A DNA stretch of 64,000 nt from Acholeplasmatales bacterium. Lineage in GTDB: Bacteria; Bacillota_I; Bacilli_A; Acholeplasmatales; Anaeroplasmataceae. Positions within the stretch are counted from its first letter, which is position 1. Each line of letters starts with the position of its first letter. The notes under the pieces are model-generated. The model was not told the DNA's origin and ran no database searches. It saw nothing but the letters and a program-made list of their open reading frames with translations. Positions 13,511 through 62,988 of the stretch are shown here, piece by piece. The DNA lies in the NCBI GenBank assembly GCA_017454375.1, contig JAFTDB010000032.1:62001-126000 (forward strand). The letters are read 5' to 3'. Made by a program: the position numbers and the translations under genes.

Positions 13511-13539
13511 ATTATACCAAAGAAAACGCTTTTATTCAA
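13511..13539 (-). promoter_or_regulatory. Promoter of the giant BspA-like gene
   Basis: On the minus strand there is a -35 TTGAAT (13534-13539), a 17-base spacer and a -10 TATAAT (13511-13516). A TG one base before the -10 makes it an extended -10. The leader to the start codon is about 50 bases. Confidence 0.75.
13522..13535. promoter_or_regulatory. cre-like site inside the BspA promoter
   Basis: The site GAAAACGCTTTTAT lies almost wholly within the -35/-10 spacer. Aligned on its central CG, it matches the CcpA cre consensus TGWAANCGNTNWCA at about 12 of 14 positions. A protein bound here would block RNA polymerase. CcpA is encoded at 59.2-60.2 kb. The link is inference from the site and its position. 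Confidence 0.5.
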
Positions 13540-13598
13540 TAAAATGGCATTACTGAGCCAAATACAAATACATTTGTATTTATATATGTATATACAAT

Positions 13599-13631
13599 AA
13601 AAAGCACCCTCATTTTATGAAAGCGCTTTTT
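13599..13631. terminator. Long hairpin between potD and the BspA gene
   Basis: AAAAAGCACCCTCAT pairs with ATGAAAGCGCTTTTT around a TTT loop, giving about 15 pairs including a few G-U. It has A- and T-runs at both ends and could terminate transcription in either direction. One arm resembles a cre site by chance. Confidence 0.6.
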
Positions 13632-56234: not shown

Positions 56235-56264
56235 AAAACTTGGCTATTTTTTTAGCCAAGTTTT
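56235..56264 (-). terminator. Terminator of cvfB
   Basis: AAAACTTGGCTA pairs perfectly with TAGCCAAGTTTT around six bases, followed by TCTTTTTT on the minus strand. It overlaps the last codons of cvfB. Confidence 0.82.
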
Positions 56265-57077
56265 TTCTTCATCAAATTCAATTAAACCGTCTTTATATAA
56301 GCCACCATAAGCTCTTTTAAAAGCTTTTCTACTCATCTTTAAAATCTTAAATACATCCTCAGATGATGATTTCGCAGTAAGCTTCATTTGGTAATGATGA
56401 TGATTTAAATAATCTAAGATGATATTTCTATCTTCATCGATCATTACTTCCTTGTTCTCAATTAGTGAGCCATAATATTCATTACCAATGTTTTTAGTGA
56501 TTTTTACTCTTACAGCTTCACCTACACGATATTTACCTCTTGTTTCAAATGTAGGGACAAAGATATACATCATATCCTTAGATATAATAGATATACCTTT
56601 TTCTCCAACCTTTAAAACATAACCATCAACCATTTCATAATCGTTATACACTACATTTTTCTTTAAGTCCTTAATAAATTCTCTTTTTGGTAATTCACCA
56701 ATTAGAGTATCATTTTTAAGCTTTAAATTAACAAATAATGTATCTCCAACCTGTGGCCAATAATCGTGATGTCCTAAATCATCCTTAGATATCATAATAT
56801 CCTTTGGTGTATTGATATTAACAAATACAGATGTATCTGTTACATCTACAACATGAACAAAACCTGGGTGGCCAAGAGTTAATATGACATCCATTTCAGT
56901 TGCTGTAGGACGTTTTTTCTTATCTGCATAGATAAAAACTGTTACTAAGTCTCCTTCTTCATGCTCTGACTTTGATTGAGCGTAGTGAAGTAATACTTCA
57001 TCTACTCCATCTGTAAGCATAAAGCCTAGGTCAGTTTTTCTAAATGTTTTTAGGGTTACATATTCACCAATTTTCAA
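56244..57077 (-). CDS. cvfB: CvfB-type S1 RNA-binding protein
   Basis: 277 residues. Repeated S1-like OB folds (MKIGEYVTLKTFRKTDLGFMLTDG; GFVHVVDVTDTSVFVNI; VDGYVLKVGEKGISII) followed by a winged helix (about 215-275: LTAKSSSEDVFKILKMSRKAFKRAYGGLYKDGLIEFDE). CvfB proteins bind RNA and influence virulence or metabolism in Staphylococcus. It starts with TTG, overlapping the stop of the upstream 55-residue gene by 4 bases (TTGA), a strong sign of coupled translation. Confidence 0.9.
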   Translation of the reverse strand: MKIGEYVTLKTFRKTDLGFMLTDGVDEVLLHYAQSKSEHEEGDLVTVFIYADKKKRPTATEMDVILTLGHPGFVHVVDVTDTSVFVNINTPKDIMISKDDLGHHDYWPQVGDTLFVNLKLKNDTLIGELPKREFIKDLKKNVVYNDYEMVDGYVLKVGEKGISIISKDMMYIFVPTFETRGKYRVGEAVRVKITKNIGNEYYGSLIENKEVMIDEDRNIILDYLNHHHYQMKLTAKSSSEDVFKILKMSRKAFKRAYGGLYKDGLIEFDEEKTWLKK

Positions 57078-57241
57078 TTTCTATCCCCGTCCTTATAATT
57101 TCTATCTGTTTGTTTTAGATAATCTTCCTTAAGCTTATCAAAATTTTGTTTTTTGTTAGGCTTTTTATTACCAGATTCAAATTTCTTAATGAGTTCCTGT
57201 CTTTCACGCTCACTCATTGGTTTCTTATTCACTTCTGTCAT
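57074..57241 (-). CDS. Small charged protein of unknown function (55 aa)
   Basis: Reads MTEVNKKPMSERERQELIKK and continues to DYLKQTDRNYKDGDRN before TGA. An AGAGG site lies 6 bases before the ATG. It overlaps the end of the upstream gene by 17 bases and cvfB by 4, so it is embedded in a translated operon. Lys/Glu-rich, probably helical or disordered. No family recognised. Confidence 0.75.
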   Translation of the reverse strand: MTEVNKKPMSERERQELIKKFESGNKKPNKKQNFDKLKEDYLKQTDRNYKDGDRN

Positions 57242-57644
57242 ACTTTGCCTCTTTTAAATTACAGCTTTTCTTAAGCTCATCTAATATTCTAACAATATTA
57301 TCTTCAGTTGTAAAACTATCTTTTCTTCTAGCCTTATAATTTATTTCAATAAACAAACCATTTATATCATATAAAATTAAAGTCATAGAAATAGTCTTAT
57401 CAATTAAATTATATTCCTTAAACCTCTTACAATTAAGAGAAAAATCATCTGATTCTCTAAGACCATTAAATAAGGTTAATCTTTGAAAATATAATTTATC
57501 ATCCTTTAGGCTCATAATGAATTTCGCACTACCTTCATTATAAATCTTGCCTAAATTTGGTTTTAAATATACAAAACAAGGTTTATGTCCTTTGAGCTTT
57601 CCTTCTCTTCTCAAAGCCAAAAGTAATTCTCTTTTTTCCATCAT
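57225..57644 (-). CDS. Uncharacterised protein upstream of cvfB
   Basis: 139 residues from the ATG at 57644, with GGAG 6 bases upstream (a TTG at 57656 overlaps that site). Soluble, basic N-terminus (MMEKRELLLALRREGKLKGHKPCFVYLKPN), beta-rich middle. No membrane segment or motif recognised. First gene of the cvfB unit; no clear promoter seen. Confidence 0.72.
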   Translation of the reverse strand: MMEKRELLLALRREGKLKGHKPCFVYLKPNLGKIYNEGSAKFIMSLKDDKLYFQRLTLFNGLRESDDFSLNCKRFKEYNLIDKTISMTLILYDINGLFIEINYKARRKDSFTTEDNIVRILDELKKSCNLKEAKYDRSE

Positions 57645-57676
57645 TTGAGTCTCCAATTTTTATTTTTGTAAATAGT

Positions 57677-57705
57677 TTGACAAGCGCTTTCATAAATGAT
57701 AATAT
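57677..57705 (+). promoter_or_regulatory. Promoter of the putative small RNA, with overlapping cre-like site
   Basis: -35 TTGACA (57677-57682), exact 17-base spacer, -10 TAATAT (57700-57705). The cre-like sequence GACAAGCGCTTTCA (57679-57692) overlaps the -35 and spacer. Its right half matches the consensus perfectly; the left half is compromised by the -35. Confidence 0.65.
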
Positions 57706-57711
57706 ATAGGT

Positions 57712-57781
57712 GTAAGCAAACTTTTCAATCAAGAAAAATAATCTCTCCCCCGAAGGCTAGGACACTAGCCTTTATTTTTTT
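57712..57781 (+). ncRNA. Putative small regulatory RNA
   Basis: A consensus promoter and a strong terminator define a transcript of about 70 bases with no ATG and no reading frame of note. It contains a single-stranded C-rich stretch, AAUCUCUCCCCC (57740-57751), of the anti-Shine-Dalgarno kind used by Firmicute sRNAs. Bases 57734-57748 (AAAAAUAAUCUCUCC) are complementary, with one G-U, to the tyrS ribosome site and spacer (59001-59015). Its U-tract overlaps the tyrS stop codon on the other strand. No known RNA family recognised. Confidence 0.6.
57753..57781 (+). terminator. Terminator of the putative small RNA
   Basis: AAGGCTAG pairs perfectly with CTAGCCTT around GACA, followed by TATTTTTTT. 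On the minus strand the same hairpin is followed by CGGGGGAGAG rather than T, so it is directional to the plus strand. Confidence 0.8.
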
Positions 57782-59000
57782 AATACTTCATTAAAGCGTA
57801 TAATTTCTTGCCACGACGTAGTACTATGAACTTACCTTCAATAGCTAAATCCTTATTTAATACTGTATCAAGGCTTGTAACCTTATCTCCATTAACTAGT
57901 ACTGCACCATTTTGGATAAATTCTCTAGCTTCTCTTTTTGAAGATGCTAGCTTACATTCAATTAATGCGTCAGCTAAAGCAATTTCTTTACCTTCAATTG
58001 TTGGAAGATCATTAAATCCCATTTCAATTTCTTTAGCAGTTAATGATTTAATATCACCTGAGAATAATGCTTTAGATACCTTTAAAGCTTCTTCATAAGC
58101 TTCCTTACCATGAATAAATGTAATAACTTCTCTAGCAAGTGCTTGATGAGCTTCTCTTAAATGAGGAGCTTCATTATTTTTTCTTTCTAATTCTTCAATT
58201 TCTTCTTTAGATAAGAATGTTAAGAACTTTAAGTAATCAATTACCTTACTATCTTCTGAATTAATGAAGAATTGATACATTTCATATGCAGAAGTCTTAT
58301 TGATATCAAGCCAAATAGCCTTACCATTTGTCTTACCAAATTTAGAACCATCACTCTTAGTTAAAAGTGGCATTGTGAATGCATATGCATCCTTACCAGT
58401 TTTCTTTCTAATTAATTCGATACCAGCAGTGATATTTCCCCATTGATCTTGACCAGCGACTTGGAATGTAACTCCCTTGTTTTGGTTTAAGAAATAGAAA
58501 TCTGCTGCCTGCATAATCATATATGAGAATTCTGTATATGTAATACCAGAATCTAGACGTCTAGCAACTATATCCTTATTTAACATATAGTTAACGTTGA
58601 AGAATTTACCATAATCACGTAAGAAATCAATGAAATTGATATCATGTAGCCAATCATAGTTATTAACTACTTCACAGCCAAATAGCTTTTCTAGTTGAGC
58701 TGTTAAGCATTTAATATTATGGTTAACTTGCTCTTTTGTAATCATTGGTCTTTCACTATCTGGTTTAGGGTCACCAATTAGACCTGTTGCACCACCAACT
58801 AATACGATTGGATGATGTCCAGCATCCTTTAATCTTTTACAGATTAAGAAGCTTGAGAAATGTCCAATGTGAAGTGAATCACCAGTTGGGTCTGTACCAA
58901 TGTAGAATGTTACATGGTCATTGTTTAATTTGTCTTTAACAATTGGATCAGATACATCTTTAATTAATCCTCTCCATACTAATTCATCATAAATATTCAT
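57780..59000 (-). CDS. tyrS: Tyrosyl-tRNA synthetase
   Basis: 406 residues from the ATG at 59000 (GGAGAGG upstream); an upstream in-frame start would lie in the T-box leader. Class I enzyme with TFYIGTDPTGDSLHIGHFSSFL (HIGH), tyrosine-site IMQAADFYFLNQ and VAGQDQWGNITAGIELIRK, KMSKS-type KSDGSKFGKTNG, and a C-terminal S4 domain (LASSKREAREFIQNGAVLVNGDKV). It is controlled by a Tyr T-box upstream and possibly by the convergent small RNA. It is monocistronic. Confidence 0.95.
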   Translation of the reverse strand: MNIYDELVWRGLIKDVSDPIVKDKLNNDHVTFYIGTDPTGDSLHIGHFSSFLICKRLKDAGHHPIVLVGGATGLIGDPKPDSERPMITKEQVNHNIKCLTAQLEKLFGCEVVNNYDWLHDINFIDFLRDYGKFFNVNYMLNKDIVARRLDSGITYTEFSYMIMQAADFYFLNQNKGVTFQVAGQDQWGNITAGIELIRKKTGKDAYAFTMPLLTKSDGSKFGKTNGKAIWLDINKTSAYEMYQFFINSEDSKVIDYLKFLTFLSKEEIEELERKNNEAPHLREAHQALAREVITFIHGKEAYEEALKVSKALFSGDIKSLTAKEIEMGFNDLPTIEGKEIALADALIECKLASSKREAREFIQNGAVLVNGDKVTSLDTVLNKDLAIEGKFIVLRRGKKLYALMKY

Positions 59001-59017
59001 AAAAATAACCTCTCCTT

Positions 59018-59190
59018 TAAAAAAATTAAAGTCCTTAGATAATCTAAGGACGAATAATCGCGGTACCACCTTAGTTCCATACTTTCGTATAGCACTCGTT
59101 AATAAAATGTCTTCAAAGAATGTAATTCATTATTTGCTATACCCTCATTTTCACCAGCCACGAGGTCTCTATATTGTATAACAATAACTA
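59018..59190 (-). ncRNA. T-box leader (tyrosine) of tyrS
   Basis: On the minus strand the T-box AAGGTGGTACCGCG (59059-59072) is followed by the terminator GTCCTTAGAT/CTAAGGAC (59031-59051) and a T-run. Stem I features GGCTGGTGAAAA and the likely specifier TAC in GAATTACATTC (59122-59124) lie upstream. Uncharged tRNA-Tyr is expected to stabilise the antiterminator. The exact 5' end is uncertain; a weak -10-like TACAAT is at 59173. Confidence 0.92.
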
Positions 59191-59209
59191 CTAATTTCTC
59201 ATCACTAGA

Positions 59210-60205
59210 CTATTTAGTTGTTCCTCTTTTTACAACATTGTATGGTAATACAATTTTTGATTCTGTAACTTCTTCTTGTTGCATGTACTTAGTAAGAAGT
59301 CTCATTGATACAGCACCGATATCATATACCGGTGTATCAACACAAGTTAGGTTAGGTCTAGATAATACTGCATATTTAGTATTTTGTAAACCAATAACTT
59401 CAATATCTTCTGGAACTTTATATCCTGCGTTAATTGCAATATTCATAAAGCTTACAGCAATTGAATCTCTTACAGCGATAGTTGCTTCAATATGTTTGTT
59501 TTTAATAAATTCTTCGAAATGATATTTATTAATTGAAACATCACCACTAGTTCTAAAGATTAAAGGTTCTAAGCCAGCTTCAGTCATAGCCTTTTCGTAG
59601 CCTTTAACTTTATGAGTGTTTACTGTATATTTTCTAACAGTAGAAAGTAGATAGATATCCTTTTTACCTTCTTCTAGTAATTGCTTTGTAATTTCATAAG
59701 TTGCTTTTTCATAATCAATAGTTACAGTAGGAACATCAAGCTCATCGTAATTAACATTACATAATACTACTGGAATTTGATCATCTTGAATTTGGTTAAT
59801 TGCCATATGCATCTTATCTGATTCTAGTTCATCATTTAAGAATAAAATACCATCAACTTGTTCAGCAACGACAATTCTTAAGACATCTTTAATGTCTTCG
59901 CCTTCAGCAACAGAGAAAATCTTTATTGCATAATTATATTTTTTGGCAATATCCATAATACCACCAAGTAATTGTGAAGTAGATGCTCTAGAAACATCGG
60001 CCATAACGATACCGACAGTTGTAGTCTTTCTACTAGCTAGACCCTTGGCAATAGCATTAGGACGATAGCCTAATTCTTTAATAACTTTTAGGACTCTTTC
60101 TCTAGTCTCTGGATTAACTTTTTCAGGATTATTCATGACACGACTTACTGTTGCTAATGATACTTTTGCAGCTCCTGCAACGTCGTAAATTGTTGTACTT
60201 GCCAT
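59210..60205 (-). CDS. ccpA: Catabolite control protein A (LacI family)
   Basis: 331 residues from the ATG at 60205 (AAGGAAG upstream; an earlier start is rejected). HTH and hinge STTIYDVAGAAKVSLATVSRVMNNPEKVNPETRERV, LGYRPNAIAKGLASRKTTTVGIVM, then a periplasmic-binding-protein-like core (QVDGILFLND, KVKGYEKAMTEAG, CVDTPVYDIGAVSMRLL). The HTH-hinge and length fit CcpA rather than a sugar-specific LacI. CcpA with HPr-Ser-P binds cre sites to repress or activate carbon genes. A perfect cre lies upstream of its own promoter. Confidence 0.85.
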   Translation of the reverse strand: MASTTIYDVAGAAKVSLATVSRVMNNPEKVNPETRERVLKVIKELGYRPNAIAKGLASRKTTTVGIVMADVSRASTSQLLGGIMDIAKKYNYAIKIFSVAEGEDIKDVLRIVVAEQVDGILFLNDELESDKMHMAINQIQDDQIPVVLCNVNYDELDVPTVTIDYEKATYEITKQLLEEGKKDIYLLSTVRKYTVNTHKVKGYEKAMTEAGLEPLIFRTSGDVSINKYHFEEFIKNKHIEATIAVRDSIAVSFMNIAINAGYKVPEDIEVIGLQNTKYAVLSRPNLTCVDTPVYDIGAVSMRLLTKYMQQEEVTESKIVLPYNVVKRGTTK

Positions 60206-62938: not shown

Positions 62939-62967
62939 TTGACATTTATAAAACGCTTACATATAAT
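62939..62967 (+). promoter_or_regulatory. Promoter of the LacI-family regulator, with cre-like site in the spacer
   Basis: -35 TTGACA (62939-62944), 17-base spacer, -10 TATAAT (62962-62967): a perfect consensus. The cre-like ATAAAACGCTTACA (62948-62961; about 12 of 14 matches) fills the spacer. Confidence 0.75.
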
Positions 62968-62974
62968 AAAATTA

Positions 62975-62988
62975 CGAAAACGTTTAAG
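62975..62988. promoter_or_regulatory. Second LacI-type operator at the regulator's own start
   Basis: CGAAAACGTTTAAG shares the right half ACGTTTAAG with the GH94 operator and lies at the predicted transcription start of the regulator. The two operators are 142 bases apart, suitable for looping. Confidence 0.6.

Follow-up and report, generated by a model that had tools for sequence, protein, structure and literature searches.

What, if anything, is encoded in the short intergenic segment between the divergent orf143-cvfB genes and the convergent tyrS gene of this Acholeplasmatales bacterium, and on what would its product act? A preliminary description of the window (the whole stretch of 64,000 nucleotides that was analysed) had proposed a catabolite-linked small RNA that could pair with the tyrS ribosome site. 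We find that its account of the element itself holds: at 57677-57781 of the plus strand, a cre-like site overlaps a TTGACA-N17-TAATAT promoter, and a directional terminator follows with no open reading frame in between (Table 1). The −35 hexamer (57677-57682) and the −10 hexamer (57700-57705, preceded by TG) are separated by a spacer of 17, and the terminator hairpin, which has nine pairs and a ATTTTTTT tail, starts 46 bases past the −10. Terminator-like sites number 8 in 10 kb, compared with a shuffle mean of 3.3. According to the list of open reading frames, no frame of at least 30 amino acids begins within the predicted transcript, and the only plus-strand frame listed at the small RNA (57696-57794) begins upstream of the predicted transcription start. 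The short non-coding stretch between promoter and terminator holds CUCUCCC, the C-rich anti-Shine-Dalgarno stretch to which the preliminary description had drawn attention; it is near-invariant in homologues and wholly unpaired (as CTCTCC) in 29 of 30 core-to-terminator folds, while a few folds with longer flanks pair part of it. The locus probably encodes a stand-alone, trans-acting small RNA of about 70 nt that is repressed by CcpA and uses its C-rich region to block ribosome sites.

Table 1. Features of the small-RNA locus and its neighbours in the window
Feature	Coordinates	Strand	Remarks
cvfB-like S1-domain protein gene	56244..57077	-	Pfam S1_2, CvfB_1st, CvfB_WH
orf55	57074..57241	-	small gene adjoining cvfB; found in 34/38 carriers
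orf143	57225..57644	-	divergent neighbour, 139 aa from ATG; beside the RNA in 32/38 carriers
Small-RNA promoter TTGACA-N17-TAATAT	57677..57705	+	sigma-70-type; kept in relatives
cre-like CcpA/LacI-type operator	57678..57693	.	overlaps −35; centre 57685/57686
Predicted small RNA, ~70 nt	57712..57781	+	start predicted from the −10
Module 1, ACTTTTCA	57720..57727	+	at most one mismatch in 29/38 homologues
Module 2, AATAATCTCTCCC, putative C-rich anti-Shine-Dalgarno seed	57737..57749	+	conserved across homologues
Intrinsic terminator	57752..57781	+	stem 57752-57773, U-tract to 57781
tyrS	57780..59000	-	convergent neighbour; TIGR00234, 378 bits
tyrS ribosome site and spacer	59001..59015	-	complementary to 57734-57748; match not conserved
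T-box leader of tyrS	59043..59214	-	Rfam RF00230, 96.6 bits (gathering score 93)
ccpA-like LacI-family regulator gene	59210..60202	-	upstream of T-box and tyrS; LacI domain

Comparison with related genomes is what makes the predicted small RNA convincing, since it shows the gene to be conserved and to keep the same position upstream of cvfB. The check for conservation in relatives that had been suggested at the outset places the element in 38 of 55 family genomes. The carriers comprise 23 of the 27 genomes of the window's own genus, all 11 of genus g6 and 4 of the 8 of g4; the total is defined by the search word AATCTCTCC, so that more diverged copies would be missed. Many of the genomes compared are incomplete. 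A BLAST search of 57640-57800 against 100 related genomes gave 63 genomes with matches at E ≤0.01, many of them tyrS ends or short stretches; the element is present in 25 of the 30 BLAST loci returned, the window's own counted. A pattern scan of named genomes yielded 30 stretches, 26 of them with promoter and hairpin, under labels that are mostly Anaeroplasma, Anaeroplasmataceae, Acholeplasmatales or Mollicutes, and placed the predicted small RNA in Anaeroplasma bactoclasticum ATCC 27112. Four stretches of the scan (L094, L105, L107 and L113) look like chance and were set aside.

We scanned 160 genomes of the order with a model (R1) built from 30 homologues; the model is sequence-only because RNAalifold finds no common pair in the alignment (A1). 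Among the matches listed at E ≤1.2e-5 are 22 of 27 genomes of g1, 11 of 11 of g6 and one of g4, and the next two listed (1.5e-5 and 4.9e-5) belong to related RNAs in G047 and G010. Below a strength of about 1e-4, where a few matches were read, we took them to be chance hairpins; one weak match, in G014 (E 4e-4), proved on reading to have both cre and core. When the cvfB neighbourhood was read in 19 genomes, the majority of which had no strong match, three g4 carriers that the model had missed came to light (G050, G048 and G029), so that absence by the model alone is weak evidence. Within the cvfB-locus stretch read, no element was seen in the close relatives G001 and G006, in g2 (G027, G033), g3 (G028, G034, G038), g5 (G030, G036, G040) and g7 (G032), or in the g4 genomes G035, G039 and G042. 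On L399 of G001, which is closely related to the window's species, similarity to tyrS stops at 935 and similarity to orf143 starts at 940. No room is left for the RNA, which looks cleanly deleted at about 935-940. A search with Rfam over the window returned only T-box and tRNA at the gathering score and no small-RNA family; around the locus, at E up to 5, the sole match is STnc280 (16.7 bits) on the other strand.

The homologues share a layout in which the −35 with its cre and the −10 are followed by a variable stretch, mostly then by ACTTTTCA(A)ATAATCTCTCCC, and finally by a hairpin whose sequence differs among most species. The distance from the end of the −10 to ACTTTTCA is 13-39 bases in 28 of 30 rows measured. 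Mean pairwise identity among 27 aligned homologues is 0.96 for cre plus −35, 0.78 from there to the −10, 0.58 in the 5' variable stretch, 0.85 in ACTTTTC and 0.98 in AATAATCTCTCCC, the values for cre/−35 and AATAATCTCTCCC leaning high because the rows were found partly through those motifs; orf143 at the same loci shows 38-54% identity with its counterpart in the window. In the window's species eight extra bases separate the two modules. The first module is missing in nine carriers, and module 2 therefore seems the essential one. The terminator stems, compared from the loop outwards, use 3-6 standard pair types at each of nine inner positions and have a dG of −13.5 to −31 (n=30 for both), so that pairing is kept while sequence changes. 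At 57749-57773 many relatives carry an A-tract ahead of the hairpin, with which the terminator would work in both directions and serve the convergent gene too; in the window's species CCCCCG stands there instead, which leaves tyrS without a U-tract right behind the hairpin. Two other ideas about this stretch were discarded. Pairing of ACUUUUC as an anti-terminator with GAAAAG of the terminator arm fails in the window's species, which keeps ACTTTTC with a terminator that lacks GAAAAG, and a minus-strand gene in the complement (GGGAGAGATTATTTTGAAAAGT, with the look of a Shine-Dalgarno sequence plus TTG AAA AGT) has a frame that differs in the few relatives translated by eye, with early stops in some of them.

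The neighbourhood is similarly stable. We found cvfB in 36 of the 38 carriers, always upstream of and divergent from the RNA, and the two carriers where it was not seen, G021 and G049, have the RNA close to the end of a contig. No Pfam or NCBIfam family matches orf143. On the other side, tyrS falls within the stretch examined around the RNA in 11 carriers, and the ten of these other than the window's genome all belong to g6; four of the 11 (the window's genome, G031, G037 and G041) have it 44-61 bases from the RNA core, and the other seven, all g6, at a distance of 506-702 bases.

For the catabolite link we searched with a cre query of the B. subtilis type, WTGAAARCGYTTW. The query matches 57681-57693 on the minus strand with one mismatch, and matches of this type number seven in the window against 2.08 expected, a number that none of 100 shuffles reaches. 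The site fits the consensus WTGNNARCGNWWWCAW (PMC3463425) at 11 of 13 defined positions, one half-site being GCTTTCAT, and its centre lies about 26-27 bases before the predicted start at 57712. PMC3463425 reports several cre positions, −27 being one, for the strongest CcpA repression in B. subtilis, and for Lactococcus lactis it cites several that include −26; since the cre here covers the −35 and is centred at a position reported for strong repression, we infer repression on a preferred sugar. The overlap of cre and promoter extends well beyond the window, with a cre at the −35 in 30 of the 38 carriers. In G023 it sits upstream of the −35, and seven carriers lack it (G003, G005, G021, G024, G025, G029 and G048), which means that the RNA can do without the catabolite link. 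The ccpA-like gene about 1.5 kb from the RNA has TIGR01481 (ccpA) as its best family, at 297.5 bits and below the equivalog cut-off of 442.

These elements suggest a simple mechanism. A CcpA-like regulator would block the promoter through the cre over the −35 while a preferred sugar is present, and poorer carbon sources would release it. The RNA, with a predicted single-stranded 5' part and a strong terminator hairpin at its end, would then base-pair, through its C-rich AAUAAUCUCUCCC, with the GGGAGAGAUUAUU-like ribosome site and spacer found in certain mRNAs and so stop translation initiation, without a recognisable Hfq. Hfq is over the cut-off in none of the 55 family genomes, with one weak sub-threshold match, in a search whose controls gave 5 positive genomes of 14, Bacillus subtilis and E. 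coli among them. Transcription, CcpA repression, ribosome-site blocking and the targets are all inferred.

Searches for those targets drew on leaders from crude gene calling (126 from 224 kb of this genome and 206 from 12 relatives), so that the rankings hold for a sample. Exact GGGAGAGATTATT places number at least 33; of the 33 listed, 32 fall in the RNA gene, and the remaining one is the ribosome site of an ammonium transporter gene (amt) in G018. Whole-core complement-like patterns exceed reversed controls among the matches listed; TIR-like complements stand at 2.43 times control in the 38 carriers versus 2.88 in 11 non-carriers, a comparison that omits six of the 55 genomes (G009, G017 and G046, with no cvfB locus, and G035, G039 and G042, with no element there), and complements are no richer in carriers because the complement resembles an ordinary translation start. 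Near-complements were rejected as targets, given that 47 of the 60 read fall inside reading frames and 57 of the 60 come from g6. The leaders of orf143, orf55 and cvfB were likewise dropped (median ranks 0.37, 0.47 and 0.70 of background; n=23, 22 and 24), as were metK, found in at least four genomes among the matches listed, with its Shine-Dalgarno sequence within what reads as an upstream coding end, and three dnaJ-like matches judged by eye to be coding. A further 20 ribosome-site-like matches, chosen among those listed, show no recurring gene except the dnaJ-like coding one. Across the exact places, near-complements and ribosome-site-like matches listed, no target is common to all carriers. 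A lon-type gene (named by eye) at L327 4065 (G000 contig 1) has GGAGGGATTATTTTATG and the second-best leader of 126, at −20.8.

The target originally put forward was tyrS, of which the RNA would be a specific repressor, pairing over the ribosome site on top of the T-box. The pairing exists as described: 57734-57748 reads AAAAATAATCTCTCC and 59001-59015 on the plus strand reads AAAAATAACCTCTCC, with one difference, which gives 14 Watson-Crick pairs plus one G-U. The tyrS leader moreover ranks first of the 126 sampled leaders of this genome, at −21.2 kcal/mol, and of three exact GGAGAGRTTATT places in the genome only the tyrS one is a ribosome site. Yet the comparison with shuffled controls that the preliminary description had itself proposed goes against it: for 19 of 60 dinucleotide-shuffled RNAs the best of the leaders sampled from this genome is just as good, so that the complementarity is no more than chance gives. 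GGAGAGGTTATTTTT is kept in none of 29 tyrS leaders from other family genomes, and tyrS lies outside the stretch examined around the RNA in 27 of the 38 carriers. Relatives' tyrS leaders pair better than background (p 7.5e-8), as strong Shine-Dalgarno sequences do, but 17 of 100 shuffled RNAs give as large a difference. We therefore reject tyrS as a conserved target; the pairing looks like coincidence, and a dedicated tyrS repressor is very improbable. Of the dual control once suggested for tyrS, the T-box half, which Rfam recognises, is real, while the small-RNA half stays hypothetical. Where the gene is present, the RNA might instead mainly repress amt, which lies behind a glutamine-synthetase-type gene, and so tie nitrogen uptake to carbon state, with other targets in other species. 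Twenty-two amt matches, less one fragment without a start, gave 21 leaders from 21 genomes, with a median rank of 0.9% of 332 background leaders; 16 of the 21 are in the best 3.3%, a result that none of 200 shuffled RNAs matches, and GATTATTT?ATG occurs in 10 of 21 amt leaders versus 4 of 332 background leaders. In G033, where the RNA is absent at the locus read, the amt leader does not pair (−7.3). However, amt was picked after two of its leaders had appeared in the complementarity search, which biases these statistics upward, and leaders of related genomes are not independent. The G006 leader pairs well (−17.7) although the RNA is absent at the locus read, and those of G026, G004 and G010 pair poorly. 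At E 1e-50, moreover, amt is found neither in the window's genome nor in six more genomes of its genus, nor in any of the 11 g6 genomes, all of which carry the RNA. If the RNA regulates mRNAs through its C-rich region, the 21 amt leaders offer the best candidate target in relatives, though this genome yielded no amt; as the RNA's main role, amt repression nevertheless seems rather unlikely.

The C-rich stretch could also serve something other than mRNA repression, the RNA being a sponge for G-rich RNAs or a ligand of an RNA-binding protein such as CvfB. The fixed cvfB neighbourhood and the lack, among the matches listed, of an mRNA target conserved across all carriers would fit this, as would the precedent of RosA and RsaI, CcpA-regulated RNAs for which the part of PMC8216469 consulted describes sponge activity as shown or proposed. 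But those two use G-rich regions on C-rich partners, the RNA here is C-rich, and the only pointer to CvfB as a partner is its position, so we consider a sponge or ligand improbable. A more radical alternative dispenses with the small RNA, reading the segment as an operator for the divergent orf143-cvfB genes joined to a bidirectional terminator for the convergent gene. By eye, many relatives have an A-tract ahead of the hairpin that supplies a U-tract on the opposite strand, and many have a TATAAT-like hexamer near the orf143 start, which speaks for this reading. Neither function, however, calls for the most conserved stretch, AATAATCTCTCCC, which is located after the promoter and before the hairpin, and the −35 and −10 point towards it; we consider the absence of a small RNA very improbable. 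Returning to a ribosome-site-blocking small RNA, one can extend the reading to a fuller story: a CcpA-repressed RNA that, once released, would silence amt where present, and an Hfq-less Anaeroplasmataceae family that would join carbon and nitrogen control, while individual lineages would have captured other ribosome sites, that of tyrS for example. Taken whole, that story is unlikely.

Sugar control of the B. subtilis small RNA SR1 is exerted by CcpN/CcpA. In the part of PMC8501984 consulted, SR1 inhibits translation initiation of a metabolic regulator mRNA and encodes a small protein, whereas the RNA here has no internally starting frame of at least 30 amino acids. RsaI (RsaOG) of S. aureus is described, in the portions of PMC9266662 and PMC8216469 consulted, as CcpA-repressed and as blocking the Shine-Dalgarno sequences of glcU_2 and fn3K. 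Like our RNA, for which CcpA repression and Shine-Dalgarno blocking are predictions, it is stand-alone, with a C-rich region for mRNAs; unlike it, RsaI has two G-rich regions in that account (PMC8216469), a feature not evident in our 70 nt apart from the terminator, and it belongs to another lineage. The same source, as far as consulted, describes C-rich regions of RoxS and FsrA that act on central-metabolism mRNAs, and RosA of B. subtilis as a stand-alone, CcpA-repressed sponge of about 229 nt with G-rich regions (PMC8216469). RosA thus resembles the short, C-rich RNA here, for which CcpA repression is predicted, but differs in being long and having G-rich regions. The RoxS/RsaE, FsrA and CsfG RNAs of Bacillus and Staphylococcus are C-rich like the present one, which has no Rfam match; RoxS is under Rex and FsrA under Fur, whereas the RNA here is short, with a cre, one hairpin and the seed AAUAAUCUCUCCC. 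We file it as a new family that would work like RsaI and the C-rich RoxS/RsaE and FsrA class while being shorter and simpler. Small RNAs of Mycoplasma are the subject of PMC5088518, and a literature search turned up nothing on an Anaeroplasma small RNA in the titles and abstract openings of the matches listed. Small RNAs of Mollicutes on the Acholeplasmatales side seem little studied, and with its clear operator, its near-invariant seed, its constant gene neighbourhood and one carrier kept in a strain collection, the family would be a testable case of Hfq-less, catabolite-controlled riboregulation.

Several further elements came to light in the course of the comparison. One region of G010 contig 88 (L148) carries a related short RNA, GTAAGACAAATCTCCCAAGATGG plus hairpin, in three near-identical copies at about 1606-1653, 1884-1935 and 2381-2432. 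The copies share a different promoter motif, TGTCCYACATTTGTCC, and may form a sibling family, present in several copies and controlled by another regulator. G047 has a further relative, a hairpin with a ACTTTTTCATAAGCAAACTATAACTCTCCC-like stretch, in two copies (L149 1345-1507 on the plus strand and L150 1018-1187 on the minus strand), where the promoters are of the GGGTATACTATA type and no cre was seen. Within the window, cre-like sites cluster at 13520-13629, one of them, ATGAAAGCGCTTT at 13617-13629, being an exact match. Two more (62950-62962 and 62974-62986) lie between a second LacI-family-like gene and a GH94-type gene, in a region (62939-62986) that holds the 12-of-12 TTGACA-N17-TATAAT promoter of the former. 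In G029 and G035 (L026 and L028, about 1501-1600), a cre-overlapped promoter precedes a CACTAAGTAAAG-like motif that is flanked by the arms of an inverted repeat; this element lacks the small-RNA core and is possibly a second cre-controlled RNA or leader in g4.
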